In this document: positions 4,773 through 23,486 of the stretch, piece after piece
Numbering within the stretch: the stretch's first letter is position 1
Layout of the letters: each line of letters starts with the position of its first letter
Assembly: GCF_002564105.1 (NCBI RefSeq)
Contig: NZ_PDBX01000001.1
Span: forward strand, 2,914,001-2,978,000
Source: Collimonas sp. PA-H2
GTDB taxonomy: Bacteria > Pseudomonadota > Gammaproteobacteria > Burkholderiales > Burkholderiaceae_D
Length of the DNA: 64,000 nucleotides
Direction of reading: 5' to 3'
Translations under genes and position numbers: made by a program
Notes under the pieces: model-generated
The model's database searches: none
Seen by the model: only the letters and a program-made list of their open reading frames with translations
What the model was told of the DNA's origin: nothing

Positions 4773-4823
4773 TGCTTGGTTTTCATTTATTTTTCTATTT
4801 TCGACAAAGATCCATTCTATTTC

Positions 4824-5637: not shown

Positions 5638-5694
5638 TTTTTCCATCTTTCCATTTTTTATTTCTTATTTTTCATTCTCTTTAAGGAGCACATC

Positions 5695-6135: not shown

Positions 6136-6270
6136 GGCAGAAACTGACATTCGCATGGTCATGCGGGGGAACACTTGTTCGCGGGGCTAATGCGGCCTAA
6201 ACTAGGCTGGCATAGCGAAACATGACTCCGATGGAAACCGGCCTGCGCGACACCCTATTCAGACCATGAG

Positions 6271-8878: not shown

Positions 8879-9175
8879 ATGAAAACAAGTCAAGTTACCC
8901 GATTTCCTATGAAGAAAGGCGAAGTGATCACAATGACAAAACCAAAAGATTGCGTCATTCAAGTTGATAGCGGCCGTTTGTGGATAACCCAGACCAACCA
9001 AAGCGATGACATTTTCATTGAAGCTGGTAGTGCATGCACGCCCAAGGAAAACGGTTTCCTGGTGGCTGAGGCAATGAGCCATACGGTGATGTCGATGAGA
9101 TACGTAAAGCCCGTGCCGGCGCATGCTGAAAATGATGATAAAGCCCAGTCGGGCATTTCGCTTGAAGGAGCCTGA
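8879..9175 (+). CDS. DUF2917 domain protein
   Basis: A 98-residue small cupin-like protein matching the DUF2917 pattern: a start with MKKGEVITM, then CVIQVDSGRLWITQ and a short region ending SMRYV. The ATG at 8879 was chosen because GGAG lies six bases upstream; the longer open frame from 8768 has no such signal. The function of DUF2917 is unknown; in Burkholderiales such genes commonly sit beside regulators and membrane proteins. It is the first gene of a six-gene run, ending four bases before the next ATG. Confidence 0.8.
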   Translation: MKTSQVTRFPMKKGEVITMTKPKDCVIQVDSGRLWITQTNQSDDIFIEAGSACTPKENGFLVAEAMSHTVMSMRYVKPVPAHAENDDKAQSGISLEGA

Positions 9176-9178
9176 GAG

Positions 9179-10351
9179 ATGAAGGTTTCCGCATATTTGA
9201 CTAGTCCATCGGCGCAGCTCGGCTTGGCGGTCGGGATTCTGATGTATGGCAGCTATGGATTGGCACATCATGCTTTCGGAAAAACAGGATTGATCGCTCT
9301 TTGTGCCTTTGTCGGCGTATTCATTCCGTATTACTCCAAGTTGAGCAACAAGCTGGAGGAGCTTGTCAATCTTCGCAGCGCACGGTTAAGCCTGGGACGT
9401 CTGGTAAGGTTTCTGCCGCAGTTGTTGTTCAATATCGGGATTTTCCTGGCCCTGGTCTTGGCCGGCGTATTCCCTGACAGCAGCCTGGATGCATTGGGTG
9501 GCGTGCTTGGCATCGCTTTAGTAACAACTTGCGCCTCGCAAGGCATGCAGTACCTGGCTTTGGCCATGGCCAATCGAGAGATAGGGGACAAGAACCGCAA
9601 TGTGCTCATCGCCCTGTCAACCAATATTGTCGTGACTGCCGTGGCTACAGTCGGTTGGCCATGGGCCAAGACAGCTTTCATTACGTTCGGCATTGGCTTT
9701 GGCCTGCTCTTTTTTGCAGTGGGATTGCTGTCGGATTGGCGCTCGATGGTGTTTCGACGCGGCGGCGTCGGCGTGTTCTTCGGTACCTTCAACCCTACCC
9801 ATAGCACGCATCTGGCATTGATTCGCGATGCCATCAAGGCCCGCGGTTTGAAGAAGGTGTATCTGCACTGCACAACCGTACCCAAGCTTCATGCCCAGGC
9901 ACTGCAACGCGGCGAGATTCGCATCTCCCAATACGAACGCGGCATGCGTGTGTATGAAACCACCGAACGTGCTGATGTCCATGTCAACTATTTTCCGACA
10001 GGACGCAAGTTTTATGAGTATGAAACCCGTCTGGCCATGATGCAGGCGGCGGTGGCTGATGCCGGCCTGTCCGATGTGGTCGAAGTACTGTCCTTGCCGG
10101 AGGCGTATGACAAAGGTGGTTTTTACGCTGTGCTGGCGCACGTCAAGCGATTGAACAAGGGACAAGCTGTGCACGGCATTCATGGCAGCGACCTTGGCGG
10201 CATGTGGGTGCGAGGCATATATGACGAATCCGGCTGGATCTACCCCTATCCAGTGGTCCGCCGAGACAAGGTGTCGGCCACTGCTATCAGGAATGGCGCA
10301 ACCGGTTTGACCACCCGAAAAGTCGAACAAATGATGGAAGCATTACGATAA
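9179..10351 (+). CDS. Membrane domain fused to nucleotidyltransferase-like domain
   Basis: A 390-residue fusion. Residues about 10-185 hold roughly six hydrophobic helices. Residues about 197-390 are a cytidylyltransferase / nicotinate-nucleotide adenylyltransferase-like Rossmann domain. The active-site motif is GTFNPTHSTH (202-211), a variant of GTFDPxHxGH in which the usual glycine is serine-threonine. The C-terminal VSATAIRNG (from about 365) matches the second nucleotide-binding motif ISSTxIR. This suggests a membrane-tethered enzyme that joins a nucleotide to a phosphorylated small molecule. The substrate is unknown. It is translated right after the DUF2917 gene. Confidence 0.8.
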   Translation: MKVSAYLTSPSAQLGLAVGILMYGSYGLAHHAFGKTGLIALCAFVGVFIPYYSKLSNKLEELVNLRSARLSLGRLVRFLPQLLFNIGIFLALVLAGVFPDSSLDALGGVLGIALVTTCASQGMQYLALAMANREIGDKNRNVLIALSTNIVVTAVATVGWPWAKTAFITFGIGFGLLFFAVGLLSDWRSMVFRRGGVGVFFGTFNPTHSTHLALIRDAIKARGLKKVYLHCTTVPKLHAQALQRGEIRISQYERGMRVYETTERADVHVNYFPTGRKFYEYETRLAMMQAAVADAGLSDVVEVLSLPEAYDKGGFYAVLAHVKRLNKGQAVHGIHGSDLGGMWVRGIYDESGWIYPYPVVRRDKVSATAIRNGATGLTTRKVEQMMEALR

Positions 10352-10405
10352 ATCGATGCAAGCAGCTGCAGGCAAACACAACTCTCACATTAAGGAAATT
10401 GAATC

Positions 10406-11041
10406 ATGAGCATTCATCATCTTCCAGCACCCCGCGCCATAACGGTATATCCGAATTCAGAAGAGTTGACGATCAAGATTGTGGAAAATGAAGATGAGCG
10501 CCTCAAGGCCATGCTGGTAAGGGCCATCGTTTATATGCATGAGCAGCAGTGTCCGTTCAGTGAAGAATTTGACCTGAATGATCACACATCCACCCAGATC
10601 GTTGGACTGGACCAGGATGGCGAGCCGGTATTGACGGCCCGCATCCGATATTTCAATAAGCTTGCAAAAATCGAACGCTTGGCGATACGCAGTGAGTACC
10701 GTGGCCGTGGTTATGCCCATCGCTTGCTGCATTTTATCTTGAGCATATGCCGGCAAAAGGGCTTCTCCTGCTTTTACTTGCATGCGCAGGCTCGCTTGCA
10801 ATTTTTCTACGAAGGCTATGGTTTTCGTCCGGTGGGTGGTGATTTCGCCTTTTCCGATCACGATTATATCGAGATGGTTCTGGAAGAAAGTGAAAAGCAA
10901 CCTCAGCCTTCGGAACAGATTGGCCATTGGCCGATGTTTCTCAACCGGCCCGAGAACAACCTGGACCAAGCCGGGCCATTGGAGTACGGCATTTCCTGCG
11001 ACCGCTTGCAGCATGGCTTGAGCGAGGGAGTGCGAGCATGA
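10406..11041 (+). CDS. GNAT family N-acetyltransferase
   Basis: A 211-residue protein with a GNAT domain at about residues 20-155. IERLAIRSEYRGRGYAHRLLHF is the acetyl-CoA-binding motif A (RxxGxG/A type), and FFYEGYGFRPVGGDF is the typical C-terminal part. A 50-residue tail rich in Q and P follows. It acylates an amine of unknown identity. The stop overlaps the ATG of the M20 peptidase gene, so the two are translationally coupled. Together with an exported M20 enzyme this hints at making and trimming an N-acyl amino acid or peptide, which is inference. Confidence 0.85.
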   Translation: MSIHHLPAPRAITVYPNSEELTIKIVENEDERLKAMLVRAIVYMHEQQCPFSEEFDLNDHTSTQIVGLDQDGEPVLTARIRYFNKLAKIERLAIRSEYRGRGYAHRLLHFILSICRQKGFSCFYLHAQARLQFFYEGYGFRPVGGDFAFSDHDYIEMVLEESEKQPQPSEQIGHWPMFLNRPENNLDQAGPLEYGISCDRLQHGLSEGVRA

Positions 11042-12240
11042 AGCGCTGCCTTGCAGCTGCTGCGCTGAGCCTGGCTCTGGGCGCCGCCGCGGCTGCCGAA
11101 GGCATGGAGCCGCACTACCGCGAGCTGCTTGAACGCCTGGTGAACATCAACACCGAAACCCGCAACCTTGCAGGGTTGGCGCAGGTCCGCCAATTGCTGA
11201 TTCCGCAATTCGAATCGCTTGGCCTGGTGCTCACCAGGCACCGCCTGGCGCAAGATGGACGTGAAGTACTGAGCTTTGAAATGCCAGGGGCGAAGCCTAA
11301 GGTAATGCTGGTGGGACATCTCGATACGGTATTCCCTGTCACGGGGGGCTTCCAGAAGCTGGAAGACCAAGGCAATCGTCTGGTCGGCCCTGGCGTCATA
11401 GACATGAAGGGTGGTGTAGTGCTTTTGCTCAACGTATTGGAGCAGCTCAAGAAACAAGGCGGGCTGGACCAGGTACGGGTGGTGCTCAATGACGATGAAG
11501 AGATCGGCTCGCCCAACTCCAAAGCCGTGATACGCAATCTGGCTCAAGGACTGCCATTCGGCTTGGTGTTCGAACCTGGCCTGGAAGATGGCTCTGTCGT
11601 AAGCAGCCAATCTGGTGTTCGCTGGATCAAACTGACGACCACCGGCAAGGCCGCGCATGCCGGCCTGGAACCGGAAAAAGGGATAGATGCCTGCCTGGAT
11701 CTGGCAATCAAAGTCAAGAAGGTGAGCGCGTTAGCGCAGTCCGGCAAAGGCCTGACGATCAATCCCGGTCTGATTGCGGGCGGCAGCAAACCTAACGTGG
11801 TGTGCGAGGACGCTAGCGTCACATTTGACATCCGCTTTCGTTCGCTGGCCGACTGGCAGGACGTTTCCCATGCTATCCATCACATCAGTGCGGTTAGCGA
11901 TGTCTACAACCCGCTTTTGCAGCAAGGCGCGCATACAGAGATGACGCAGCTGGCGGAAATGCCTCTGCTGCCGACCGCCAGCACCGCCGAACTGCTTGAG
12001 CGTATCCAGATCAGTGCCCGCTCACTCGGACAAACCGTGCGTGCTCGTGCCGTCGGCTATGGCAGCGACGGTAATAATCTGGCTGAAACAGGCATGCAAT
12101 TACTGGTTGGCGTGGGCCCTTATGGCGGCGGCATGCATTCAGACCAAGAGTTCATGCTACTGAGTTCTTATCAGGAGCGCCTGTCGCTCCTCACCTTGTT
12201 GATCACCCAACTTTCTTACTCACAAAAAGGCACATCATGA
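11038..12240 (+). CDS. Exported M20 family metallopeptidase
   Basis: A 400-residue zinc peptidase of the glutamate carboxypeptidase / ArgE/DapE group with an N-terminal signal peptide (cleavage near AAAAA-EG, residues about 1-21). Metal and catalytic residues are visible: H94 and D96 in VGHLDTV, D122 in GVIDMKGG, and E154/E155 in NDDEEIGS. A dimerisation domain follows (GKAAHAGLEPEKGID). The ATG at 11038 overlaps the GNAT stop; the longer in-frame extension upstream is a shadow of the GNAT gene. It should act in the periplasm on an N-acylated or C-terminally blocked amino acid or short peptide. Confidence 0.9.
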   Translation: MKRCLAAAALSLALGAAAAAEGMEPHYRELLERLVNINTETRNLAGLAQVRQLLIPQFESLGLVLTRHRLAQDGREVLSFEMPGAKPKVMLVGHLDTVFPVTGGFQKLEDQGNRLVGPGVIDMKGGVVLLLNVLEQLKKQGGLDQVRVVLNDDEEIGSPNSKAVIRNLAQGLPFGLVFEPGLEDGSVVSSQSGVRWIKLTTTGKAAHAGLEPEKGIDACLDLAIKVKKVSALAQSGKGLTINPGLIAGGSKPNVVCEDASVTFDIRFRSLADWQDVSHAIHHISAVSDVYNPLLQQGAHTEMTQLAEMPLLPTASTAELLERIQISARSLGQTVRARAVGYGSDGNNLAETGMQLLVGVGPYGGGMHSDQEFMLLSSYQERLSLLTLLITQLSYSQKGTS

Positions 12241-12779
12241 AAGCATTAGTCGTTATCGATATCCAACGCGAATACATCTCGCCAGGCCGTAAGTTCCAGA
12301 TCCATGGCATCGGTCCATCACTGAAGAACGCTTATGCGATGCTGCGCTTCGCCCGTACGCAGGACTGGCCCATCGTGCATGTGCAGCATCTGCAAGACGG
12401 CGAAATATTCAACCGAGAGTCTGACGTCTCCGACTTCATCGACAGTTTTGTACCAGAGGCCAACGAGGTGCTGGCGGTCAAGAACAACTACTCATCGTTT
12501 TCCTCTCCTGCCTTTGTCAAGTTCGCGGCGGATCACCCGGATCATGAGTTTGTCGTCATTGGTTACGGCACCACGATGTGCTGCCTGTCCACTATTGTGG
12601 ACGGCTACCATCGGGGCTACCGTTTCGCGTTGGTGGAAGATGCTTGCGCCGCCCTGGCAGTTGGCGAGCACTCAGAGGCCTCGATGCATGATCATGCCGT
12701 CGCCATTCTGGGACCGTTTTCCCGCCGCACGAACACCGAGGAAGAAACCACGCTGAATTCATTTACTGCAAAGATCTGA
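12237..12779 (+). CDS. Isochorismatase-type cysteine hydrolase
   Basis: A 180-residue cysteine hydrolase of the isochorismatase-like superfamily. The catalytic triad is D8 (VVIDIQREY), K82 (AVKNNYSSF) and a cysteine at 115 or 116 (GTTMCCLSTIVDG), with the preceding cis-peptide region GYG. Members cleave amides (nicotinamide, carbamoylsarcosine, ureidoacrylate) or the isochorismate vinyl ether. Length and the cysteine favour an amidase. Its ATG overlaps the M20 stop, so it is in the same operon. The substrate is unknown. Confidence 0.88.
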   Translation: MKALVVIDIQREYISPGRKFQIHGIGPSLKNAYAMLRFARTQDWPIVHVQHLQDGEIFNRESDVSDFIDSFVPEANEVLAVKNNYSSFSSPAFVKFAADHPDHEFVVIGYGTTMCCLSTIVDGYHRGYRFALVEDACAALAVGEHSEASMHDHAVAILGPFSRRTNTEEETTLNSFTAKI

Positions 12780-12820
12780 CCGTCTTTACAACGTTACCCT
12801 ATTACCAGAAAGAGGTTTTC

Positions 12821-13603
12821 ATGCAAACCGTTCACTCTCCAGCTTTGATGCCTTGCCAAGCAAGCGCAACCGGTACTTTGCAGCTCACGCAACGTGTTGC
12901 GGGTCCGGCTGATGGCCCGCCTATCCTGATTGCCACCATGCACGGCAAAGAAGCGGTGCTGGCTCCGCCATTGGCAGACTTGGGATTCCAGGTGTTGCTG
13001 CCGCTTGAGTATGACACCGACCTGCTGGGGACTTTCTCCGGCGACGTGCGGCGCCCAGGCACGGCGTTTGAGGCGGCTTTGGAGAAAGCGCGCCGCGCTT
13101 GTATAGCTACTGGCGTGCCACGCGCGATCTCCAGCGAGGGCTCGTACCGGCCATGCCAGACCCTGTTTCCCGCCGCCCGCAACGCCGAGATACTCGCCTT
13201 TGTCGACTTGGAGAGCGGGCAAGAGTTCGTGGAGTACATGACCGATCTGCCCACGCGCTTTGTCAAAGACCGGGTTCCGGCAGATTTTTCTTCTCCCCAA
13301 GTGCAAGCCCTGTTGTCGGCAATGGGGTGGCCCGACGTGCGCGCGATGGTTGTTCCGGAAGACCCGGGGCAAGGCGTGGTACAGCCCGAGTGGGTATTCA
13401 AGGGATTGGCTGACGCCCCTTCTCTGATTGAAGCGATGCGAGTGTGCGCTGCCCACTCCAGCGACGGCTGGGTGCATCTGGAAAGCGACCTGCGCGCGCA
13501 TATGAATCCTACACGCATGGCTGCAGTCGCTCGCGTGGGTGAGCGTTTAGTGCAACGCCTGCGCCGCCAAGGTTATGGCCAGCCGCTGCAATGGGCTGCC
13601 TGA
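12821..13603 (+). CDS. DUF6671-like protein
   Basis: A 260-residue protein that resembles the DUF6671 family by its pattern: an early ATMHGKEAVLAPPL segment and then YDTDLLGTFSGDV-R. Later parts contain SEGSYRP and WVHLESDLRAHMNPTRM. The family has no established function known to me. The spaced His, Asp, Glu and Cys residues could form a metal site, but this is not demonstrated. It is the last gene of the DUF2917 operon, with GAAAGAGG before the ATG, and is convergent with the LysR gene that follows. Confidence 0.6.
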   Translation: MQTVHSPALMPCQASATGTLQLTQRVAGPADGPPILIATMHGKEAVLAPPLADLGFQVLLPLEYDTDLLGTFSGDVRRPGTAFEAALEKARRACIATGVPRAISSEGSYRPCQTLFPAARNAEILAFVDLESGQEFVEYMTDLPTRFVKDRVPADFSSPQVQALLSAMGWPDVRAMVVPEDPGQGVVQPEWVFKGLADAPSLIEAMRVCAAHSSDGWVHLESDLRAHMNPTRMAAVARVGERLVQRLRRQGYGQPLQWAA

Positions 13604-13627
13604 AGAGACGGATCCCGCTTTCAAGCC

Positions 13628-13653
13628 GCCTGCAAATGGTTGCGATTGCAGGC
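13628..13653. terminator. Hairpin between convergent genes
   Basis: GCCTGCAA and TTGCAGGC form a perfect 8-bp stem with a 10-base loop, 25 bases past the DUF6671-like gene and before the end of the convergent LysR gene. There is no T-run on either side, so termination is plausible but not proven. Confidence 0.4.
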
Positions 13654-13706
13654 TGTCAATGACAGCAAGATGAGCGCGTCCCAGGGACATGGTCATCTTG
13701 CTTCAT

Positions 13707-14615
13707 TTACTCTGGCCGCGACATGGCGAGCTGAAGCCAATTGACAAATGCCTGCACCGAGGGATCGCGCCGCGGCCCATGGCACAGATAGAAGGAGCGC
13801 GGACTCACCAGCCGTTCTTTTAATGGTGCGACCAACAGTCCTTCCGCTAACAGCGAGTCGACCAGCGGCGAGTTCCCCAGAGCGACGCCATGGCCCATGG
13901 TGGCCGCCTGGATCAGCTGATCCAGGTGGCTGAAGCGAAAACCGATATCGTTCAACTGCAGGTCGGCGCCCAGCTGCTCGAACCAGTAAGGCCATTGCAG
14001 CCATGGCCAGGCGTTTTGCGGATCGCCTAGATGCAATAAAGTGTGATGCTGCAAATCGTCCACGCAAGTCAACTTACGCCCGCTGCGCTGCAACAGCGCC
14101 GGGCTGCATACTGGAAACACCTCTTCCTTGGCAAGACAAATATCGCTGTCAGCTGAAATCATGTCCGGGGAACAGTAGCGAATCGCGATATCCACCACGC
14201 CTTGCTTGAGGTCGACCAGGCGATTGTCCGCGTCGATATGCAGTGCGACTTCGGGGCATTGGGCACGGAAACGAGCCAGCCTCGGCACCAGCCAAAGCGC
14301 TGCAAATGAAGTCGTGGTGGATACCTTGACGCCGCGCTGGGTGAACTCTTTGCGCAGGCTGGCTACCGTTCCCGACAGATGATTCAGCGACTCATTCACT
14401 GCTTCAAACAGCACTCGTCCCTGCTCGGTCAACTCTAATGCCCGATGGCGTCGCTCAAACAGCACCAGGCCCAAAGATTCTTCCAGCTTCTTGACCTGTC
14501 GGCTAATGGCCGATTGGGTGAGAAAAATCTCATCGCCTGCCTTGGAAAAACTCAGCTGCCTTGCCGCAGCTTCAAAACCGACCAACAAATCCAGGGGGGG
14601 AAGCCGTCGCGTCAT
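13707..14615 (-). CDS. LysR family transcriptional regulator (GcvA-like)
   Basis: A 302-residue LysR regulator. The N-terminal LPPLDLLVGFEAAARQLSFSKAG and FLTQSAISRQVKKLEE form the helix-turn-helix, and the effector domain shows the GcvA-group segments FEAVNESLNHL and LVDLKQGVVDIAIRY. It is convergent with the DUF2917 operon and divergent from the small RiPP precursor at 15050, 435 bp away. It could control either neighbour; the intergenic dyads at 14755 and 14845 are candidate binding sites for it or for another regulator. Confidence 0.9.
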   Translation of the reverse strand: MTRRLPPLDLLVGFEAAARQLSFSKAGDEIFLTQSAISRQVKKLEESLGLVLFERRHRALELTEQGRVLFEAVNESLNHLSGTVASLRKEFTQRGVKVSTTTSFAALWLVPRLARFRAQCPEVALHIDADNRLVDLKQGVVDIAIRYCSPDMISADSDICLAKEEVFPVCSPALLQRSGRKLTCVDDLQHHTLLHLGDPQNAWPWLQWPYWFEQLGADLQLNDIGFRFSHLDQLIQAATMGHGVALGNSPLVDSLLAEGLLVAPLKERLVSPRSFYLCHGPRRDPSVQAFVNWLQLAMSRPE

Positions 14616-14754
14616 ATGGGGTAATCGTCCTTTTGGTGCAAATTGCTGCGGTTAGTAAGAAAAATGATTGGCAAATCGAGCAGCTGCCATTTGAGCGGAA
14701 TTTTAAATTGCGTTGATCCCTAATACATCGTTTAGCAACGATTCTTGATCGCAT

Positions 14755-14767
14755 ATTACGTAGTAAT
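14755..14767. promoter_or_regulatory. Palindrome in the LysR-RiPP intergenic region
   Basis: ATTAC-GTA-GTAAT is a perfect short inverted repeat 140 bp upstream of the LysR start. It lies in the shared promoter region and could be an operator. There is no direct evidence beyond symmetry and position. Confidence 0.3.
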
Positions 14768-14844
14768 TTTCACTAAAAAGACGATTACTCCTACTTGTAG
14801 GTGCGACAATTTAACATATGATATGTGGCAACATTTTTAAAAAG

Positions 14845-14860
14845 AACAGACCTGTCTGTT
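14845..14860. promoter_or_regulatory. Strong dyad upstream of the RiPP precursor (operator-like)
   Basis: AACAGAC and GTCTGTT form a 7-bp dyad around CT, flanked by an A-run and a T-run. It resembles TetR-family operators with a CAGAC/GTCTG core. It lies 190 bp before the precursor ATG, between divergent genes, so an operator is more likely than a terminator, although a small hairpin with a T-run is also possible. No TetR gene is in the window. Confidence 0.4.
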
Positions 14861-15049
14861 TTTTGTTACAAATCATGGATAATTGAAGCGCCTGCACTAT
14901 CCATTTGGCGTGATTGTGGGATAGCATCCAATCGGCGGAAGTGATCCGGATTGCAACATGTCCCTCATGCCGTCGATGGTAAAACCCGCACTACTTGAGC
15001 ATTCCATGCTGCCCGAAAGGCAGTCCACAACTAAAGGAAGGTGCTACTT

Positions 15050-15130
15050 ATGAAAATTCTTTTCACTCTTAAAAATATGCTTACTCGCCAAAAAAGCCTG
15101 AAGGCATACGCCTGGTACATCTGGTATTGA
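15050..15130 (+). CDS. Tryptorubin-like RiPP precursor peptide (putative atropopeptide)
   Basis: An uncalled 26-codon ORF, starting MKILFTLKNMLTRQ and ending KSLKAYAWYIWY followed by TGA. GGAAGG (15036-15041) lies eight bases before the ATG, so it is well set for translation. The last six residues, AWYIWY, are as I remember the sequence of tryptorubin A, the founding atropopeptide from Streptomyces. That compound is made from the C-terminus of a short precursor by one cytochrome P450 that cross-links the aromatic residues. The basic, hydrophobic first 20 residues would be the leader. A P450 gene follows 111 bp downstream on the same strand. The core identity and partner enzyme make the assignment strong. 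Release of the core from the leader needs a protease that is not apparent here. Confidence 0.85.
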   Translation: MKILFTLKNMLTRQKSLKAYAWYIWY

Positions 15131-15161
15131 ACCTGCAAGCCATCACCTGATTTACAGGGAT

Positions 15162-15182
15162 GCGGTTGGAGCTTCCAACCGC
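15162..15182 (+). promoter_or_regulatory. Hairpin between precursor and P450 genes
   Basis: GCGGTTGGA and TCCAACCGC form a perfect 9-bp stem with a 3-base loop, 32 bases past the precursor stop. There is no T-run. It likely protects the precursor mRNA 3' end or partly attenuates transcription, so that the peptide is made in excess over the enzyme, a common RiPP arrangement. Confidence 0.55.
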
Positions 15183-15201
15183 GTTCGGTGAAGCCCTGAT
15201 C

Positions 15202-15220
15202 GGCCCGCCGGACGCGGGCC
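15202..15220 (+). promoter_or_regulatory. Second hairpin before the P450 gene
   Basis: GGCCCGC and GCGGGCC form a perfect 7-bp GC stem with a 5-base loop, ending 22 bases before the P450 ATG. Together with the hairpin just upstream it would fold the short precursor-P450 spacer almost completely, leaving the GGAGAG ribosome-binding site free. Confidence 0.45.
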
Positions 15221-15241
15221 TCCACTTCATGGAGAGCATCG

Positions 15242-16276
15242 ATGCCAAGTACTGGCAAGCACATTCGAACTACTGTTTTTACACCTAGGCTCCAGGCTCT
15301 TTTGCACGATCATCGCGGCGAGGAAGTGTTCCGGCTGGATGCGAACACCGTCGGTGTCGCCGGGACCGCATTGACCCACCAGATCCTCAGCGCCAGGCCG
15401 GCCACCGAATTCGAGCGGCCGACATTCAAGCCCCTCCACGGACGCTCCATTCCCCGCGCCGACGCTCTGAAATTGATGCAAGCGATCGGCAGCGATGTGA
15501 GGGCAGCATTGAAGAAGCCTGTATCCGAAACGGTCGATCTTGCGGGCGACTGGCCGCACGTCGGGCACGTTTACTTGCGCGATCTTGTTCTCGGTGGCGA
15601 CCCGTACCGGTTGCGCATCCTCATGGACCGCATACTGGAACTGACGCCCAAGCTGACCTGGGCGCTCATCGCCGCTGGAGCGGCGCCATCCGTCCGGCTC
15701 CAACCGGAAGCATCCGCCATCGCGAAACTGACCGCCAGCGCCTCGACTTATAACGACCGCCGCTATGCCATGGGAATGTATCGCCGCACAGCCGCCCCGG
15801 TCTGTTTCACCATCTCCACGCTGGTCGCCAACGCACTCTGGCTCGGATTGCCATTCGACAAAGACACCTCGAACCGCAACATCCTGTATGAGGCCCTGCG
15901 GCTGCTGCCGCCGTCCTGGAACATCTTGAGGAACGCGTCCCCCGAGTACGCCGCCCTCGATTCCCGGATCGGTCCCGACGACGATGTCCTGATCTTGCCG
16001 CTTCTCAGTCACCGCGACCCGGCAATCTGGGACGACGCCGATGAGTTCCGTCCCGAGCGCTGGGAGAGCATCAACCCCAGCGAGCAGCCCGGCTACCTTC
16101 CTTTCGGCCACACCTCCGAACGCTGCTGGGGACAGCATATGGTGATGCCCCTGGCCGAGAGGCTTCTCGATATCCTGCGCAACGACGGCCTTGCCGTCAG
16201 CCCGCGGCAAATTACGGCTGAAGTACCGCTTGCCGGCCTGCTTGGCGTCTTCCAGGTCAAAGTCGTCCGGCAATAA
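15242..16276 (+). CDS. Short divergent cytochrome P450 (tryptorubin-type cross-linking enzyme)
   Basis: A 344-residue protein, shorter than the usual 390-410 residues. P450 landmarks are present: the K-helix ExxR as EALR (E217, R220), the PERW segment at about 271, and the heme-ligand loop PFGHTSERCWG with the proximal cysteine at about 295. The loop deviates from FGxGxRxCxG by having serine in place of the second glycine. The I-helix lacks a clear AGxxT oxygen-activation motif. GGAGAG precedes the ATG. Its position right after the AWYIWY precursor argues that it installs the aromatic C-C and C-N cross-links of a tryptorubin-like peptide. It needs ferredoxin partners encoded elsewhere. Confidence 0.85.
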   Translation: MPSTGKHIRTTVFTPRLQALLHDHRGEEVFRLDANTVGVAGTALTHQILSARPATEFERPTFKPLHGRSIPRADALKLMQAIGSDVRAALKKPVSETVDLAGDWPHVGHVYLRDLVLGGDPYRLRILMDRILELTPKLTWALIAAGAAPSVRLQPEASAIAKLTASASTYNDRRYAMGMYRRTAAPVCFTISTLVANALWLGLPFDKDTSNRNILYEALRLLPPSWNILRNASPEYAALDSRIGPDDDVLILPLLSHRDPAIWDDADEFRPERWESINPSEQPGYLPFGHTSERCWGQHMVMPLAERLLDILRNDGLAVSPRQITAEVPLAGLLGVFQVKVVRQ

Positions 16277-16799
16277 GGTGAAGTTCCTTTGCTTGCGAAG
16301 TTGACCATATCCGCTTGATCCAGCCGCCGCTGCCGCTCCCAGGCAGCACCCGGCTGGTACGATCCCGCAAAGCCGGGCGCGCATAGATCGACAGCGATCT
16401 GTTTCGCGCTGCGGCGCCGCTTACCTCGAGCCATCTGTGCTGCCGAGGGACTGTTCCTGTCACTTTGCGTAAATCCTATCAATTTTGACAGTTGTTCAAA
16501 TATGAATTGAGGAACAATCTTGCTGCGGACTTCATGTTTGCGGAGCAGCAGATATGCATATTGAACGTTGGAAAAAAGATAAATATCTCGCCCCGTCTTC
16601 CCACCTGAACTCTGCCTTACCTTGATGTCTCAGTACCAGCCTGGATGTCGGATAAACATCTTGGCACGCTACCGCCACCGCCATTACATTAGCGGATCGT
16701 GCCGCCGTCTCAAGATTGCCGGAACTCCAGGCAGTAACGTGTATTCCTTTGTCTTCACAAGCCTTACCTTTCTTAACGAAGTTGATGCGAGGAGAAACA
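16277..16799. other. Intergenic region, no gene recognised
   Basis: About 520 bp with no convincing frame. TTGTTC (16492-16497) and GAACAA (16512-16517) form an inverted repeat with a 14-base spacer, a possible operator for the following operon. The local AT content is raised near 16485-16600, as expected of a promoter region. Confidence 0.4.
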
Positions 16800-18332
16800 A
16801 TGCGAGCTTCACAAATACGGCGTCATCTTGGCAGCGCAGCGACAGCGTTGCCCCGTACCGCGTCACGTGCGTTAACCGCGCAAGACGGTGCCAGCGAATT
16901 CTTGCTCAATCTTGAATTCTCGCCGCGCGACTATGTCGCCTACCTGCTTTCAATCGATGCGGAAATCGAACACTGCCTGATGGTGCAGTACCTGTACGCG
17001 GCCTATTCCCTGGGCGGACCTCAGGTGCCGCCGGTGTTTCGCGATACGGTACGCAACTGGCAAGAGGTGATTCTTGGCATTGCCAAGGAAGAGATGGGGC
17101 ATTTGATCTCTGTGCAAAATGTGCTGCGGCTGATTGGCGCGCCGCTGCACTTCGAGCGCGAAGATTACCCGTGGGATGTGCCGTTTTACCCGTTCCCGTT
17201 CATGCTGCAGCCGCTGACCCTGGATTCGCTTGCCAAGTATGTGTACACGGAAGCGGCAGTGGGCTGGAATGGCGGCGCCCTGGGCGATGAAATCAGGGCG
17301 CGGGTCGCCACCCAGACTTCGAATCCGCACCAGGTCGCGGAATTATTCGACACGCTGATTCCGCTGGTGGAAGACCCGCTGTATCTGCCCGACTATGTAT
17401 TCCAGCCCGACACTTTTTCATGCCAGGCTAATTTCGCCGAATGGGGGCGGGGCTACCAGGGCGGCAACCGCGGCAACAGCGAAGGCAGGAGCGTAGGCAA
17501 GACGCCGGACGTGCTGGTGGTCCCTGTGACTTGCCGCGACGATGCGGTGAACGCCTTGAAGGCAATCGCCAAGCAAGGGGAAGCCCCGCATGGATCGGAA
17601 CCGTCGCATTTTGTGCGGTTTTTGCGCGTGTACGTTGAAATGCGCGCGGCGCAGAACAATCAACCCTGCAGCCTTGAGCAGTGGAACAATGCGCGCCCGG
17701 ATGATTTCCTGGCGGATGCATGGGCGCACTCCTACCCTGACATCGGCGCGGCGCTCCAGGCCAGCCACGGGACATGGAGTGCATCGCGCCCGGTTGCGAT
17801 CAATCCCTATGTGTCGCTCGATACCGACGAAGAGCCGGAGCAAGGGGGCACGCCGGCTACGGCAATCACCGATCCGGAATCGGCACTGTGGGCGACGCTG
17901 CACAATGTGCGCTATCGCATGCTGCTGACCTATCTGATCCACAGCTTCACGCTGTACGGCGGCTTGAATGCAGCGGGATTGATCACGCCACGCGGCACAA
18001 TTGTGAATGCTACGTTCGGGGAAATGTATAACCTGCGCGCCATCTCGGAAGTCCTGATGCAATCCCCGGTTTCTGCGACGGATCCCAATGCAGGATTCGC
18101 CGGTCCGCCATTCCAGATGCCCTACACACTGAACAGCCCGTTCGGTGAAGCCGACCGCTGGATCGGTCATCTCGACCTGCTCACCGCTTCCGAGGGCTTG
18201 ATTGCGGCCCTGCTGGCGACCAGCAGCCCGGCCCGGCATGCCTACCTGCACAGTTTGCGCGAAGCGGATAAAAGCATGATCGCGATTGCGAAGCGCATTT
18301 TGTCCGGCAGCATCGATCCCGCCTTACTTTAG
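16800..18332 (+). CDS. Ferritin-like protein related to iminophenyl-pyruvate dimer synthase
   Basis: A 510-residue protein. The start at 16800 follows AGGAG; the upstream in-frame part has no such signal. The first helix, IDAEIEHCLMVQYLYAAYSL, closely resembles the ferritin-like domain of VioB (ELSVMLQYLYAAYSI), and GIAKEEMGHL gives an ExxH-type metal-binding helix, so it fits the PF12902 type. VioB/RebD-like enzymes dimerise imino acids, but many members of this domain family have unknown roles. It opens an operon with a LodA-like pair, a radical SAM protein and an FAD enzyme, so a role in oxidising or modifying that oxidase is likelier than pigment synthesis. Confidence 0.75.
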   Translation: MRASQIRRHLGSAATALPRTASRALTAQDGASEFLLNLEFSPRDYVAYLLSIDAEIEHCLMVQYLYAAYSLGGPQVPPVFRDTVRNWQEVILGIAKEEMGHLISVQNVLRLIGAPLHFEREDYPWDVPFYPFPFMLQPLTLDSLAKYVYTEAAVGWNGGALGDEIRARVATQTSNPHQVAELFDTLIPLVEDPLYLPDYVFQPDTFSCQANFAEWGRGYQGGNRGNSEGRSVGKTPDVLVVPVTCRDDAVNALKAIAKQGEAPHGSEPSHFVRFLRVYVEMRAAQNNQPCSLEQWNNARPDDFLADAWAHSYPDIGAALQASHGTWSASRPVAINPYVSLDTDEEPEQGGTPATAITDPESALWATLHNVRYRMLLTYLIHSFTLYGGLNAAGLITPRGTIVNATFGEMYNLRAISEVLMQSPVSATDPNAGFAGPPFQMPYTLNSPFGEADRWIGHLDLLTASEGLIAALLATSSPARHAYLHSLREADKSMIAIAKRILSGSIDPALL

Positions 18333-18341
18333 GAGCCCGCC

Positions 18342-19757
18342 ATGCCGATCTTAGAACTCCGCATCCTGCCGCCCATCGCCATCGGACGCTTGGGAGCTGC
18401 AGCAACACCGCTGGAAGCGTTTGACCTGGAAGTCAATCCCGATCAGCCGTTTGACTACCGCCGGATCGTGCCGCGCCCGAGCTTTGACGTCGATCCGGCG
18501 AGCGGCGAAATCCTGCGCAGTTATGTACCGGACACCATCCGCTTCAAGGATGAAAACAAGAAAATCCGGCCGGTCGCACCTTTCCTGGAAGTCTATGCGC
18601 GCACCAGCGAGCTGCCGGAAGAACTGCAGCCATTGACGCTGGCCTTGCTGCAAGCGGAAAACCTGGACCTGAGCGCGCTGCATTGGGATATCGATCTGGG
18701 CAACATCAAGATCTACCGCCGCACCAATAATAAAAACGACAAGATCCACGCCAGCCTGCATACCCTGAAAGACCATCAGCGCCATGCGATGGAAGGCCAT
18801 TGTCCCAATTTTCACCCACGCAAAAAACTGCCGCTTGGCTACATCCAGTTCATCAAACCGAGCGCGCTATTCCCGGAAATCCGGCTGCGCTATACGCCGG
18901 CTGCCGGCATTGTGTATGGCACCCGGATGAAACGGCGCGAATCGTACCAGGACCTGGAGTTGCACGATGATCCGGTGATCGATCACGAAGACCTGGTGCT
19001 GTACGACGAAAAAAACGGCGACTGGCTGAACTACACCGAAAGCACCGGCCCGACGCTTACCAACCCGGCCGGCATCTACGCCGGCTACGCCGATAAAGAC
19101 GGCAACCAGGTCAGCTGGGGCTACCTTGACGATGAATGCGACGGCGTCGCGCGCATCGGCTTGACGCGCAAGGATGGCAGCCAGTTATGGGCGCACGGCT
19201 ATATCGGCGCCGGGCCGCCGGCGTTCGCGCCGGACACGCTGCCGATCCGGGTCGTGTCGGACGAAATGGAGCAAATCCTGTACGGCCCGGAAGTGGCGGA
19301 AGAAAGCGTGTCGCTCGACGCCGCAACGGAAATCGTATTACGGGCCCTGGAAACGGTGCGACTGATGAATTCGGCCGTGATGAACGGCAACCCATTCAAT
19401 GGGCAACTGAACGTGGCGAGCACCATGGTGCGGCAAAACAGCGCCGATTTCGAACGCTATTACGAACCGATTGCAGCTCCATCCATCGTCGACAACCTCG
19501 CCTTGCGCGCCTTGCATGAGCGGGTATTCAGCACCTTGAGCGCCGGTGGCGCGCCATGGTTCGCCAAGGTATTGCGCCAGCCTGAGGAAATCGGCGACCT
19601 GTCGTCGGAAGGATTGCGCAAGATGCCGGCCCTGATGCGCGGCGCCGATGGCCGCAGCCTGACCCTGACCCGGCGTCACATCAACATGGTGATCAAGGCC
19701 GCGCGCAATGCGATGTTTGGCCAAACCAATCCAGACGGAGACAAAAATGTCCGGTAA
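18342..19757 (+). CDS. LodA/GoxA-like protein, N-terminal module
   Basis: A 471-residue protein. Its start (ILPPIAIGRLGAAATPLEAF) parallels the LodA opening FHPAIGVARVGNS. A later stretch, GYLDDECDGVARI and PPAFAPDTLPIRVVSDEM, fits the LodA region before the catalytic domain. LodA-type oxidases, which carry a cysteine tryptophylquinone (CTQ) cofactor, are about 700-730 residues. This protein plus the next (471 + 274 = 745) adds up to one whole enzyme, so I read it as the N-terminal part of a split LodA. It ends inside the first codons of the next gene, with an 11-bp overlap. The family assignment is from remembered motifs and should be checked. Confidence 0.55.
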   Translation: MPILELRILPPIAIGRLGAAATPLEAFDLEVNPDQPFDYRRIVPRPSFDVDPASGEILRSYVPDTIRFKDENKKIRPVAPFLEVYARTSELPEELQPLTLALLQAENLDLSALHWDIDLGNIKIYRRTNNKNDKIHASLHTLKDHQRHAMEGHCPNFHPRKKLPLGYIQFIKPSALFPEIRLRYTPAAGIVYGTRMKRRESYQDLELHDDPVIDHEDLVLYDEKNGDWLNYTESTGPTLTNPAGIYAGYADKDGNQVSWGYLDDECDGVARIGLTRKDGSQLWAHGYIGAGPPAFAPDTLPIRVVSDEMEQILYGPEVAEESVSLDAATEIVLRALETVRLMNSAVMNGNPFNGQLNVASTMVRQNSADFERYYEPIAAPSIVDNLALRALHERVFSTLSAGGAPWFAKVLRQPEEIGDLSSEGLRKMPALMRGADGRSLTLTRRHINMVIKAARNAMFGQTNPDGDKNVR

Positions 19758-20571
19758 AAACTTGACGATCCGCGCCAGCAACCTGACGGCGCAAATCCAT
19801 CATCGCGGCGCAGGGAATCCGGCCTCGGTGCTGCCACGCAGCGCCATCTCCAACTGCTTCCCAGGGCTCGAATTCGATTTCCGGAATTTATGGCGGCGTG
19901 CTTTCGAAGGCATCGTTCTGGTTGAAAACAACAACTACGTCGTCGAAGCCGATCCGCAATTCCAGCATCTGGCGACACGCCGCTTGCTGCGCTTTGCCGG
20001 CCTGGATGTCGGCACCATGGTCGCTACCAGCGGACCGGTAATGCCGAATGGTTCCTCCGGCACCTTGGCCAGTTCCGCCAATCCGAATGCGGTCTCGTTC
20101 ATGGAATGGTCGAATTCCTTCGCCCGCATCATGCACTTGCAGGGGCAGGTGGTTGAGTGTGAATTTACCGCCTATGCCGGCGCCACCGATGAAGTGCTGC
20201 TAACGTCGGAAACCGAAACGCTGAAGGTTAGTCTGACCATGCGCCGTTTCTTTGAAGACGAAACCGCCACCATCAACAGCGACATGCTGCAACCGGGGGA
20301 GTTGACCCAAGGTTTGTGTGCGCCCTGGCAAAACGACTATCGCGAATGCGCCTGCTATTACTGGGCCGCGTCACGTCCGGACTATGTGAACGTGGAGCCG
20401 GGCCAGGACGGTCTTTCCAAAGGCGATATGTGGTTTGCAAAGAAACGCACCGGCACTTACATTCCAGATAATCGGGTCGATACCCGTCTGTGGTCTTACG
20501 ATGACTTATTCAAATCCTGGCAAGAGGATCTGCAGTTCGTCATCCGCGGGAAAGATGCTGATGAAGCTTGA
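19747..20571 (+). CDS. LodA-like protein, C-terminal (putative CTQ-bearing) module
   Basis: A 274-residue protein in the +1 frame relative to the previous gene. Its own GGAG lies seven bases before the ATG at 19747, so it is translated separately. GELTQGLCAPWQNDYRECACYYW (about 184-206) resembles the LodA region ELTKALALPWQADF that contains the tryptophan converted to CTQ. W194 is then the candidate quinone tryptophan, and C138, 56 residues upstream, a candidate partner (the spacing in LodA is 65). Several other cysteines (C37, C191, C201, C203) could be sites for the adjacent radical SAM enzyme. This is motif-level inference. Confidence 0.55.
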   Translation: MSGKNLTIRASNLTAQIHHRGAGNPASVLPRSAISNCFPGLEFDFRNLWRRAFEGIVLVENNNYVVEADPQFQHLATRRLLRFAGLDVGTMVATSGPVMPNGSSGTLASSANPNAVSFMEWSNSFARIMHLQGQVVECEFTAYAGATDEVLLTSETETLKVSLTMRRFFEDETATINSDMLQPGELTQGLCAPWQNDYRECACYYWAASRPDYVNVEPGQDGLSKGDMWFAKKRTGTYIPDNRVDTRLWSYDDLFKSWQEDLQFVIRGKDADEA

Positions 20572-22000
20572 TCAGGCGGCGCCGCACGCTTGCAGCCGGA
20601 CTCCCGCAGCATCGGCCGCTGCCGCGTCGGCAGCCGGCATGGCCCCCGCGCTGGCAGCACGTATCGCCGAGGCTTCACGGCCACGGCAACGCGACGCCCA
20701 TCTGATCGAAGATGCGCAAGGCGCACAGCTGCTGGTGGTGAACGGCAGTCGTTTATTCCATTTGCCGCCCGCACTGGCAGCCGAATTTCGGGCAGCGCTG
20801 GATGGCATGGACGACTCCGTCGTGCAAGGCTTGATCGCCAGCAGCGGCTTGCAATCGGCGCCGCTGATCGACGATACGCCGCTGGCTGCGCCGCCGGTGC
20901 ATGCCTTGTCGCTGGCGATTGCACAGAAGTGCAATCTTGGATGTACCTATTGTTACGCACAGCAGGGCGAGTTTGGCGGCAAAGCCAAAAACATGGAATT
21001 GGAGACGGCCAAGCAAGCCGTCGACCTGTTGCTGGCCAAGGCCGCGCCCGGATCCAAGGTTAGCCTGGCTTTCATGGGCGGCGAGCCGCTGGCCAATCGT
21101 CCGGCGCTGCGTGCAGTCACCCGCTATGCACAAGAACAGGCCGGGCAACGCTCAGTCGATTGCCGGTTTTCGATCACGACCAATGGCAGTCTATTGCAAA
21201 CGGACGATGCCGATTTTTTCGAGGAACACGGTTTTGCCGTTACCGTCAGCCTGGATGGCCCGGCCGAGCAGCACAACCGCTTGCGGCCCTTTAAAGGCGG
21301 CAAAGGCTCTTTTGATCAGATCATCGAACGTGTGGCGCCGCTGCTGGAGCAGCAACGCCGGATGCAAGTATCGGCGAGGGTGACCGTCACGCCATTCAAT
21401 CTGAACCTGCCGCGCACGCTGGATTTATTCATCGATATGGGCTTCCATAGCGTCGGCTTTTCGCCACTGTTGCGAGCCTCCAACGGACAGGCGGAAATGG
21501 CACCGGAGGATATGGAAGACATGTTGCAGGGGATGATCGCCTGCGGCCTGGCGTTTGAACAGAATGTCATGCTGGGGCGGCGCTACCCCTTCATGAATAT
21601 GCAAAATGCCCTGCGTGAAATTCAGCGCGGCACGCATCGTCCTTACCCCTGCGGCGCCGGCGCCGGTTATTTCGGCGTTTCTGCTGAAGGCGAACTTTCG
21701 GCCTGCCATCGCTTTGTCGGCGATGAGGCTGGCAAGATGGGCGATCTTGCCACAGGCGTCGACGCCGGCCGCCAGACCGTATGGCTGGAACAACGCCACG
21801 TACACCAGCAACAGCCCTGCAATTCCTGCTGGGCGCGCTATATGTGCGGCGGCGGCTGCCATCATGAAGTACTGGCGCGCGGCCGCAGCGCCTGCGACTA
21901 CATCCGCGGCTGGCTGCATTACACCATCGGTGCACACGGCCGCCTCGGCCAGCTCGCGCCAGCCTGGTTTGCCGGCTCCGACAGCGCACACACGGGGTGA
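20561..22000 (+). CDS. Radical SAM/SPASM maturase
   Basis: A 479-residue radical SAM protein. The [4Fe-4S] motif is C124-N-L-G-C128-T-Y-C131. A C-terminal SPASM region contains CGAGAGYFGVSAEGELSACHRF, then PCNSCWARYMCGGGCHHE, the usual auxiliary-cluster cysteines. The layout is that of peptide-modifying enzymes such as QhpD, which forms thioether cross-links in quinohemoprotein amine dehydrogenase. The exact start is uncertain (20555 or 20561); it overlaps the previous gene either way. Its context with a CTQ-like protein and an FAD monooxygenase suggests that it modifies the LodA-like subunit. Confidence 0.85.
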   Translation: MKLDQAAPHACSRTPAASAAAASAAGMAPALAARIAEASRPRQRDAHLIEDAQGAQLLVVNGSRLFHLPPALAAEFRAALDGMDDSVVQGLIASSGLQSAPLIDDTPLAAPPVHALSLAIAQKCNLGCTYCYAQQGEFGGKAKNMELETAKQAVDLLLAKAAPGSKVSLAFMGGEPLANRPALRAVTRYAQEQAGQRSVDCRFSITTNGSLLQTDDADFFEEHGFAVTVSLDGPAEQHNRLRPFKGGKGSFDQIIERVAPLLEQQRRMQVSARVTVTPFNLNLPRTLDLFIDMGFHSVGFSPLLRASNGQAEMAPEDMEDMLQGMIACGLAFEQNVMLGRRYPFMNMQNALREIQRGTHRPYPCGAGAGYFGVSAEGELSACHRFVGDEAGKMGDLATGVDAGRQTVWLEQRHVHQQQPCNSCWARYMCGGGCHHEVLARGRSACDYIRGWLHYTIGAHGRLGQLAPAWFAGSDSAHTG

Positions 22001-22001
22001 C

Positions 22002-23486
22002 ATGCAGCATCAGGCTGATATGTTCATCATCGGCGCGGGCCCGGCCGGCTTGTGTGCGGCGCTGCGTTTGCAGCAACTCGGCTATCGCGTTGTGCTGATC
22101 GAACGCAGCGCTGCCTGGCCACGGCCCCAGATTGGCGAAGCCCTGACCCCCGGCGTAAAAAACATTATCGACTTTCTGGACGCCAACCAGGCCCTGGAGA
22201 AAGTGCCCCACCTGACCCGTTTGCCAACCCGCCTGAGCTGGCGCAGCAGGACTGCCGAAACGGTAGTCCACGCCGACGCCGCGGTAGTCGATCGTTCGGC
22301 CCTCGATGCGGCCTTGCTGCAACTGGCGATTGCACGTGGTGTAGAAGTGCACCAGCCAGCCAGTCTCGATAGCGTTGCCGGCAGCGCAGGAGACTGGCGA
22401 CTGGTTTTTTCAACGCCAGGCGCCGTGCATCAAGTGCATGCCCGGATGATTCTGGATGCCCATGGACGTCAAAGCAGCCAACCCCGGCAATTGCTGTGTG
22501 CGCCGCGTTTATCCGCCATGTGGGCAGAAATTGCGGAAAGCGACATCCCGTCCGAATTAGCGCATGTCACTCAGGTGGAAGCGCTGGAGCAAGGCTGGCT
22601 GTGGGGCACCCGCCTGCCGGACCGGCGTTATCGCATCATGCTGCTATCCGATCCAGTTACTTCCCGCCAGCTCAGTTCCAGCCGGCCCGAATCGTGGCTG
22701 CGCCATAATTGCAGCGCAAGCAGCTTGTTCGCCAGCGTGGCCCAGCAGCCACTTTGCAGTCCCTTGCAAATGTGTGTGGCGACGCCGTATGTGGCGATCG
22801 ACAGCTGGCAGGACGGCCGTCTAAAACTTGGCGACGCGGCATTTGCCTTAGACCCGATATCATCGTCCGGAGTAGAAAAGGCGATGCGGTTTTCATTGCA
22901 GGCAGCGATAGCGATTCACACCTTGCTGCAGGCTGGTAATGCGGCGCAACGAACCCTGGCGCATGATTTTTACCGGCAGCGCTTGATTGAAACCCATGCC
23001 CGCCATCATTTCTGGACGGCGGCATATTATAAGCAGGCCTGGTGCAGCCAGCAGCCATTCTGGCAGGAGCGCTCAACGCCAAAGATAGCAGCGGTGCCCG
23101 GCAATCACGAAGCCTCGCTCATGATCGAGGCGCTGCAACGGGAAATTGAACAGCTAGCCAATTACCGCGAACCGGTAATTCAAGCCGGCCTGGATATGCA
23201 AACCAGTCAGATGATTCGCTTCCATCACCTGGTGCAGATAGTTTCGCTTCCCTGCGTAACGGGCGACAAAGTCGAATTGCTGCCTGCCATGCGGCATCCG
23301 CACCTGGAACGCCCGCTGGCGTTTTGGGAAAACGAAGCGATACTGCCGCGCCTAGGGATTTTATCGCAAAAAACCACGCTATCTTCAATGCTCGACATAC
23401 TGGGTCAATCCATGCCCCTTCAAAAAGCCCGGCGTTTGCTGACCTGGCTGTGGCAGCGTGGACTAGTGGAAATTGTGAGCGATTGA
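22002..23486 (+). CDS. FAD-dependent monooxygenase (LodB/QhpG-like)
   Basis: A 494-residue flavoprotein. The dinucleotide fold opens with MFIIGAGPAGL (GxGxxG at 11-16), then VVLIERS, and the second FAD-contact motif GRLKLGDAAFALDPISSSG is present at about residue 270. A C-terminal extension of about 200 residues follows. LodB and QhpG, needed to hydroxylate the tryptophan that becomes CTQ in LodA and in quinohemoprotein amine dehydrogenase, belong to this halogenase-like group. It starts two bases after the radical SAM gene and closes the operon. A halogenase is the alternative, but the K-x5-W-x-W-I halogenase signature is not evident. Confidence 0.8.
   Translation: MQHQADMFIIGAGPAGLCAALRLQQLGYRVVLIERSAAWPRPQIGEALTPGVKNIIDFLDANQALEKVPHLTRLPTRLSWRSRTAETVVHADAAVVDRSALDAALLQLAIARGVEVHQPASLDSVAGSAGDWRLVFSTPGAVHQVHARMILDAHGRQSSQPRQLLCAPRLSAMWAEIAESDIPSELAHVTQVEALEQGWLWGTRLPDRRYRIMLLSDPVTSRQLSSSRPESWLRHNCSASSLFASVAQQPLCSPLQMCVATPYVAIDSWQDGRLKLGDAAFALDPISSSGVEKAMRFSLQAAIAIHTLLQAGNAAQRTLAHDFYRQRLIETHARHHFWTAAYYKQAWCSQQPFWQERSTPKIAAVPGNHEASLMIEALQREIEQLANYREPVIQAGLDMQTSQMIRFHHLVQIVSLPCVTGDKVELLPAMRHPHLERPLAFWENEAILPRLGILSQKTTLSSMLDILGQSMPLQKARRLLTWLWQRGLVEIVSD

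Follow-up and report, generated by a model that had tools for sequence, protein, structure and literature searches.

The region described here very probably holds a two-gene atropopeptide cassette of Collimonas, made up of a precursor gene that encodes the core AWYIWY and of a gene for a cytochrome P450 predicted to cross-link the aromatic residues of this core, with a promoter that is likely under the control of a distant TetR regulator. Both genes, the KSLK leader motif, the core, the invariant P450 residues, the conserved pairing and a shared inverted repeat can be read directly in the sequence (Table 1). Earlier publications have already described the family, the two-gene layout and the occurrence in Pseudomonadota; new here are the membership of Collimonas in the family and a testable regulatory link to a TetR locus, predicted from the shared repeat. 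The window, by which we mean the whole stretch of 64,000 nucleotides that was analysed, belongs to a genome of 5.95 Mb in two contigs that is congeneric with the 14 other Collimonas genomes compared.

Table 1. Coordinates of the cassette and of the predicted regulatory elements (positions in the window, or in locus L127 where named)
Feature	Position	Strand	Evidence
Inverted repeat ACAGACCTGTCTGT, about 190 nt before the precursor; predicted operator of TetR	14846..14859	+	Genome-wide exact copies
Ribosome-binding site of the precursor, AAGGAAGG	15034..15041	+	Sequence; eight bases before the ATG
Atropopeptide (tryptorubin-family) precursor gene, 26 aa	15050..15130	+	NF038372.1 match
KSLK leader motif, residues 15–18	15092..15103	+	Sequence; motif definition excerpted from PMC11450843
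Core peptide AWYIWY, residues 21–26	15110..15127	+	Sequence
Atropopeptide-modifying cytochrome P450 gene, 344 aa	15242..16276	+	Pfam p450, homologues, invariant residues, predicted fold
TetR regulator gene	L127:8359-8943		PF00440 TetR_N, 62.1 bits (cut-off 24)
Gene of a 381-aa protein	L127:5621-6766	+	Inverted repeat upstream

The Precursor Gene and Its P450

The precursor ORF runs from an ATG at 15050 to a TGA at 15128–15130, and its 26 codons translate to MKILFTLKNMLTRQKSLKAYAWYIWY. As defined in excerpts of PMC11450843, an atropopeptide precursor carries a KSLK-type leader motif around residues 17–20 and a C-terminal core xWxxxx with Trp at core position 2, lies adjacent to a P450 of the atropopeptide-modifying clade, and scores over the curated cut-off of the NCBIfam model tryptorubin_fam. 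Here KSLK occupies residues 15–18 of the 26, the core abuts the stop codon, the adjacent gene encodes a P450 of this clade, and the model (NF038372.1) scores 56.3 bits against a cut-off of 33, with residues 1–26 of 26 matched. The earlier note had read this stretch, from the letters alone, as a tryptorubin-like cluster in betaproteobacterial surroundings: a 26-codon ORF with a ribosome-binding site and AWYIWY right at its C-terminus, followed by a P450 gene on the same strand. The sequence and the NF038372.1 match bear out the ORF, the P450 gene begins 111 nt past the precursor stop, and the host is indeed a Collimonas species.

The ribosome-binding site is retained in C. humicola and C. pratensis. 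The precursor of C. pratensis is the same protein, with four synonymous base changes and no amino-acid change in its gene; C. humicola has three synonymous changes and one amino-acid change; and in C. arenae seven bases differ in synonymous codons and 13 in changed codons. The G+C content is 37% in the precursor gene, 62.2% in the P450 gene and 58.3% in the window.

Pfam p450 matches the P450 at 51.6 bits (cut-off 22.8), the match being confined to residues 213–300, and 413 homologues are found at E ≤ 1e-10 among 7,999 candidates scored. The haem ligand C295 (in FGHTSERCWG) and the ExxR residues E217 and R220 are invariant in 23 aligned rows of the family. Counted from the match start, the P450 frames of related loci (L004 left out) are 336–365 aa long, with two exceptions, L026 (103) and L072 (297, at a contig end), so the 344 aa of the Collimonas enzyme are normal for the family and give no sign of truncation. 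In L026, from Xanthomonas cucurbitae, a precursor ORF is present beside the short frame. The AlphaFold2 model of the P450 is of middling quality, with a pLDDT of 77 (the other four models: 37–64) and a pTM of 0.80. In a fold search with this model the 50 matches listed are all P450s, including the biarylitide enzyme P450Blt, at moderate TM-scores (0.45–0.62 to solved P450s among these 50); a sequence search of solved chains likewise gives a P450 as its top match (E 3.3e-13).

The best named relatives of the enzyme are from Collimonas and Paraherbaspirillum, with 96% identity to the C. humicola homologue, 90% to that of C. pratensis and 79% to that of C. arenae. Identity to the P450s of named actinobacterial loci is 59–77%, a relatedness that the earlier note had proposed to check. 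We regard a 385-aa ORF antisense to the P450 gene (15227–16384, minus strand) as a side effect of G+C-rich codon usage.

Pairing and Distribution

A scan of the contig collection gave 139 stretches, 101 of them with a relative of the P450, and the best 80 of these 101 were used (66 from Actinomycetota, 14 from Pseudomonadota). A precursor ORF lies 5′ of the P450 in all 80 loci. It fits a strict pattern, modelled on the motif list of PMC11450843, in 75 of them, and a looser one, set after the ORFs had been viewed, in the other five (L033, L036, L083, L087, L088); one extra, unlikely ORF was caught by the strict pattern in L055. Within 300 nt upstream of the P450, a leader-motif ORF is found in 72 of the 80 loci by the strict pattern and in 77 by the loose one, and the three loci outside this limit (L071, L080, L092) have a precursor that starts 307–313 nt upstream. 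Applied to 7,972 further 300-nt stretches on both strands of these loci, neither pattern finds such an ORF. These counts uphold the expectation that the pairing is not due to chance and that the small ORF is conserved beside P450 genes in other genomes; together with the NF038372.1 score and the clade of the P450, the 80 loci with a precursor agree with the assignment to the atropopeptides. The exact core AWYIWY occurs in 24 of the 80 loci, namely 18 of the 66 actinobacterial ones and six of the 14 from Pseudomonadota (C. humicola and five of the other 13).

Within the genus, the P450 is encoded in four of 15 genomes (the window's own, G005, G007 and G013), and the same four contain a precursor over the cut-off. 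In the genome search NF038372.1 passes its cut-off in these four of 15 Collimonas genomes, and 14 control genomes yield no such score; sub-threshold matches at E ≤ 10 are seen in three further Collimonas genomes and in seven of the 14 controls. In a sample of 399 Burkholderiales genomes, with at most five candidates scored per genome, the P450 is found at E ≤ 1e-60 in one, the window's own. Phage carriage of the cassette is ruled out by searches that gave no relatives: none of 50,697 phage records matches at E ≤ 1e-20, and none of the 23 stretches of viral contigs that fit a pattern encodes a relative. Among plasmid records, 18 of 72,556 match at E ≤ 1e-40, all from Streptomyces or Embleya.

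Extent of the Cassette

We compared positions 4001–30000 of the window with the other three carriers. Collinearity extends from 14721 to 23519 with C. humicola (plus 4001–6155 joined on), from 8758 to 16386 with C. pratensis (with a small insertion at 14907), and from 15050 to 16250 only with C. arenae. C. humicola keeps the right flank, C. pratensis the left flank and C. arenae neither; since the flanks differ across the four Collimonas genomes, the minimal unit is the precursor and the P450 alone. In a comparison of neighbours at four Collimonas, 12 other Pseudomonadota and eight Streptomyces loci, neighbour genes recur inside the Xanthomonas group and inside the Streptomyces group, and besides the P450 and its antisense ORFs no gene family joins Collimonas to another genus.

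The operon downstream of the cassette (16716–23486, plus strand) contains genes for a ferritin-like protein, a LodA-type CTQ quinoprotein, a radical SAM/SPASM protein and a flavoprotein. The quinoprotein is split into two overlapping ORFs (18342–19757 and about 19747–20571). The radical SAM/SPASM protein is QhpD-like (TIGR03906, 318.9 bits, below the cut-off of 453) and the flavoprotein is of the QhpG type (NF049967, 308.1 bits, over the cut-off of 240); it is unusual to see a LodA-type target together with Qhp-type maturases. The short C-terminal LodA protein (19747–20571, plus strand) seems to represent a separate family and not the result of a frameshift error: 1,214 database proteins match it at E ≤ 1e-5, and among the 120 listed most have a length of about 270 aa. 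Yet of 300 genomes sampled from the order only its own has a match at 1e-15.

A Shared Inverted Repeat and a Predicted TetR Regulon

Of the inverted repeats in the 350 nt 5′ of the precursor, the strongest has a 16-bp form, AACAGACCTGTCTGTT (14845–14860), and the 14-bp form listed in Table 1. The 14-bp repeat has three exact copies in its own genome, each 5′ of a gene, where 0.036 are expected per genome. Across the 15 Collimonas genomes there are ten exact copies: three each in the window's genome, C. humicola and C. pratensis, and one in C. arenae, while the remaining 11 have no copy. Nor does the reversed pattern, used as a control, occur in any of the 15 genomes. With one mismatch allowed, the 16-bp form finds the same three sites in the window's genome, and its reversed control gives one match.

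The other two copies in this genome flank a locus (L127) about 2.45 Mb from the cassette. One stands 152 nt before the ORF of the 381-aa protein, the other between a TetR gene and a divergent gene for a diiron oxidase (PF14518) that among solved proteins is closest to HrmI (E 5e-43). Pfam, NCBIfam and the PDB give no match to the 381-aa protein; part of it looks, by eye, similar to acyl-CoA dehydrogenases. A TetR regulon would be expected to have a regulator with a TetR_N domain and the same inverted repeat at the promoters of regulator and target: PF00440 identifies the domain, and the repeat is shared in this way for three of the four Collimonas cassettes. The C. arenae cassette has no repeat upstream, which limits the repeat–cassette link to those three. 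TetR (at least 93% identity) and the diiron oxidase occur in the same four of 15 Collimonas genomes as the cassette, a pattern that would be less telling if these four were close kin, as they may be; two further Collimonas genomes encode TetR proteins at 37–38% identity. The 381-aa gene is present in three of the 15 and is missing from C. arenae.

The copies were found by exact search, so the identity of the aligned copies (eight of ten) is no proof by itself. The TetR–oxidase intergenic regions of the four genomes, picked via their proteins, are invariant in 265 of 381 columns (70%); the longest invariant run, of 27 columns, includes the repeat, and all 14 repeat columns are invariant. No exact copy is found outside Collimonas among the 127 loci compared, no common inverted repeat is evident by eye upstream of the 12 other Pseudomonadota cassettes, and a scan upstream of the precursor found no consensus sigma-70 promoter. 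The words regulator, operator and promoter are absent from the main text of PMC11450843. We predict from these sequence comparisons that the atropopeptide cassette is a further target of the TetR regulator that serves another pathway.

What this pathway may be is suggested by C. pratensis, where the two repeats away from the cassette lie 25 kb apart. One is between TetR and the oxidase; the second stands 83 nt before a gene for a 595-aa AMP ligase, which is followed by the homologue of the 381-aa gene (391 aa there). These genes belong to a run of about 24 kb (L155/L156, G005:C1:2630001-2658500) that lies on one strand up to the oxidase and is bounded by the TetR gene. After the 391-aa gene it encodes an 80-aa carrier protein, an AurF-type N-oxygenase, ketosynthase-III-like proteins and a second AMP ligase, and it also includes a PLP decarboxylase, a citrate-synthase-like protein, a methyltransferase, a TauD-type dioxygenase, an ABC transporter ATPase, an FAD oxidase, an aminotransferase and an aldehyde dehydrogenase. 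The run hence combines two types of predicted N-oxygenase, one AurF-type and one HrmI-like. In the window's genome and in C. humicola the 381-aa gene directly adjoins the oxidase gene, so the rest of the run is absent from that place. Given the TetR gene that bounds the C. pratensis run and the reduced locus here, TetR looks like the local regulator of a biosynthetic cluster that has been reduced in the window's genome and to whose TetR control the cassette would have been attached. By analogy with HrmI, we would guess that the Collimonas oxidase carries out the same type of N-oxygenation, from lysine to a nitro amino acid.

Predicted Product and Mechanism, and Possible Role

The sequence AWYIWY is what we take to be the core of tryptorubin A. 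If the Collimonas pair works like the characterised members from Streptomyces, the leader helix would dock on the P450, KSLK would thread the core into the haem pocket, the P450 would form one to three bonds (from aromatic side chain to side chain, and from side chain to backbone), and a general cellular protease would release the peptide. In excerpts of PMC11450843, the leader is described as recruiting the P450, and the peptide is believed to be set free by a general protease encoded elsewhere; the P450 of tryptorubin A makes a biaryl bond, a C–N bond and a side-chain-to-backbone C–N bond. Judging from the footprinting, TetR would repress the cassette, its own gene together with the divergent HrmI-like oxidase, and the 381-aa gene until a ligand frees it; in C. 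pratensis it would repress the whole biosynthetic run instead of the 381-aa gene alone.

No natural role of atropopeptides is given in the literature cited here, and their shapes are striking. The tryptorubin A core in a two-gene cassette of Collimonas, a Gram-negative soil bacterium, extends the question of the compound's function to another phylum, and the common inverted repeat is a handle for switching the cassette on and for finding co-regulated genes. If Collimonas makes tryptorubin A, the same molecule would have persisted through a transfer between phyla, and this would point to a function beyond Streptomyces biology; the TetR wiring, if true, would give a first view of how an atropopeptide is regulated and a first hint at what it is for. 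Rather speculatively, we can imagine that Collimonas captured an actinobacterial rigid-peptide cassette and that the TetR of another pathway came to control the atropopeptide, the HrmI-like N-oxygenase and, in C. pratensis, the 24-kb run, of which the window's genome keeps the oxidase and the 381-aa protein only. The peptide would then be made in answer to, or together with, a small N-oxidised metabolite.

Alternative Explanations

The same cassette might make another product, with fewer or other bonds, such that a mono-cyclic or shortened relative (e.g., cross-linked WYIW) is formed and not tryptorubin A. We give this a substantial chance, somewhat below even: the core is identical in sequence to that of tryptorubin A and the outcome is set by host and native P450, but the enzyme and its counterpart in the SPB074 locus, which has an identical core, share only 64% identity. 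Moreover, in the excerpted accounts ScaB turns the WYIWY precursor LauA into a tetrapeptide of −2 Da (PMC12352619), and one cluster gives two products with the same core and different modifications (PMC11450843). The calculated mass of WYIW minus 2 H, 665.308, agrees with the m/z of 665.3083 published for scabrirubin CB-1 (excerpt of PMC12352619), which checks our mass arithmetic. For the hexapeptide the calculated [M+H]+ values are 901.424 in the linear form and 899.409, 897.393 and 895.377 after loss of 2, 4 and 6 H, the last being that of the three-bond product. As for the repeat, it is conceivable, if on the unlikely side, that it is not a TetR operator for the cassette, being shared by descent in related Collimonas or serving another regulator. 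Its carriers are four genomes of one genus that may be close kin, the C. arenae cassette does without it, and the identity of its copies comes by construction from the exact search. These points have to be set against three unlinked copies in each of three genomes where 0.036 are expected, the position of each copy 5′ of a gene (the cassette; TetR and the oxidase; the 381-aa gene in the window's genome and C. humicola, or the ligase gene in C. pratensis), and the invariance of all 14 columns inside the longest invariant run of the four TetR–oxidase intergenic regions.

A silent or decaying import, intact in sequence and with no expression in Collimonas, would fit the lack of a consensus promoter in the scan upstream of the precursor and the early stop in the P450 frame of the related locus L026; it is quite improbable, given that both genes are open in four Collimonas genomes and that the precursor changes in C. 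pratensis and C. humicola are mostly synonymous. We attach almost no credence to a larger cluster in which the LysR gene (13707–14615) regulates the cassette or the downstream operon adds tailoring steps. Both adjoin the cassette in the window, the operon on the same strand, and LysR-type ORFs are present in all four Collimonas stretches, at differing places. However, the window's LysR gene is not next to the C. humicola cassette, the operon is not next to the cassette in C. pratensis or C. arenae (its first gene is elsewhere in C. arenae), and neither is common to the 12 other Pseudomonadota loci compared. The flank comparison rules out the LysR gene and the LodA-type operon as parts of the cluster.

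Probable Origin and Transfer

In a quick tree of 88 P450 rows, midpoint-rooted without an outgroup, the 22 rows from Pseudomonadota all fall together (SH-aLRT 99) within Actinomycetota, and C. arenae stands apart from the other Collimonas. The cassette is likely to have its origin in Streptomyces-type bacteria. As far as a midpoint-rooted tree allows, we infer as the simplest reading one early transfer into Pseudomonadota, followed by dissemination among genera of soils and plants; an exchange between these phyla had been proposed before (excerpt of PMC11450843). No tRNA is found in the window, which removes a tRNA-linked island as the origin, and a search via two flanks found no clean empty site in cassette-free Collimonas.

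C. arenae has a more distant cassette at another site (L095, 9.5–10.7 kb, reversed strand), with the precursor MKILMSIKNKFAREKSLKDYAWYIWY, the 79% identical P450 and no repeat upstream; it is probably a separate acquisition or an old paralogue. Burkholderia and Paraburkholderia (L034, P0074, P0084) form a second betaproteobacterial P450 branch (SH-aLRT 100), apart from Collimonas.

Relation to Known Systems

The Collimonas cassette shares with the tryptorubin A cluster of Streptomyces the two genes for precursor and P450, the KSLK leader and the AWYIWY core. It differs in host phylum and in its P450, which is 64% identical to the P450 of the AWYIWY locus of Streptomyces sp. SPB074, presumably the reference tryptorubin A enzyme. 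The plasmid locus of S. clavuligerus (L125), which we assume to be that of amyxirubin/clavorubin, has a P450 with 63% identity and an upstream ORF with KSLK that ends in GKSLKGYAWYIWW (YAWYIWW); its core is therefore AWYIWW, ending in IWW where that of Collimonas ends in IWY. The gene table of the collection that contains this record, incomplete by its own account, enters the P450 and misses the precursor ORF.

The loci of Xanthomonas, Dyella, Luteibacter and Burkholderia (L018–L034, L060, L090) have the P450 clade (SH-aLRT 99) and the precursor layout in common with Collimonas, whereas the inverted repeat is absent from all of them in its exact form. Proteases are reported close to Xanthomonas clusters, in contrast to the unit common to the Collimonas cassettes, which includes no protease. 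According to excerpts of the literature, atropopeptide clusters are found mainly in Streptomyces, Xanthomonas and related genera of two phyla (PMC11450843), five of seven Pseudomonadota precursors were modified in Streptomyces by the P450 ScaB, and no atropopeptide had been reported from Pseudomonadota up to that date (PMC12352619). The earlier note had put the locus forward as a Gram-negative source of this scaffold. As a novelty this is not supported in these words, Pseudomonadota clusters being known already from genome mining; the statement of PMC12352619 on the lack of a reported atropopeptide from Pseudomonadota still stands. With these published clusters and the exact core in six of the 14 Pseudomonadota loci, the claim is limited to Collimonas, and the interpretation as a whole is partly supported. 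In the open-licence literature we found no paper on Collimonas and P450-modified RiPPs and, among the papers listed, none that links Collimonas with the atropopeptide family.

Biarylitides likewise are small peptides cross-linked by a P450, and structures of P450Blt are among the fold matches. To our knowledge, they have no KSLK leader. Their precursor has five residues (excerpt of PMC13417212), in contrast to the 26 of the Collimonas precursor. Within the atropopeptides, the precursor of Xanthomonas vasicola (L031) ends in SSWGLYM, without a second Trp, and corresponds to the xWxxYx type described in excerpts of PMC11450843.
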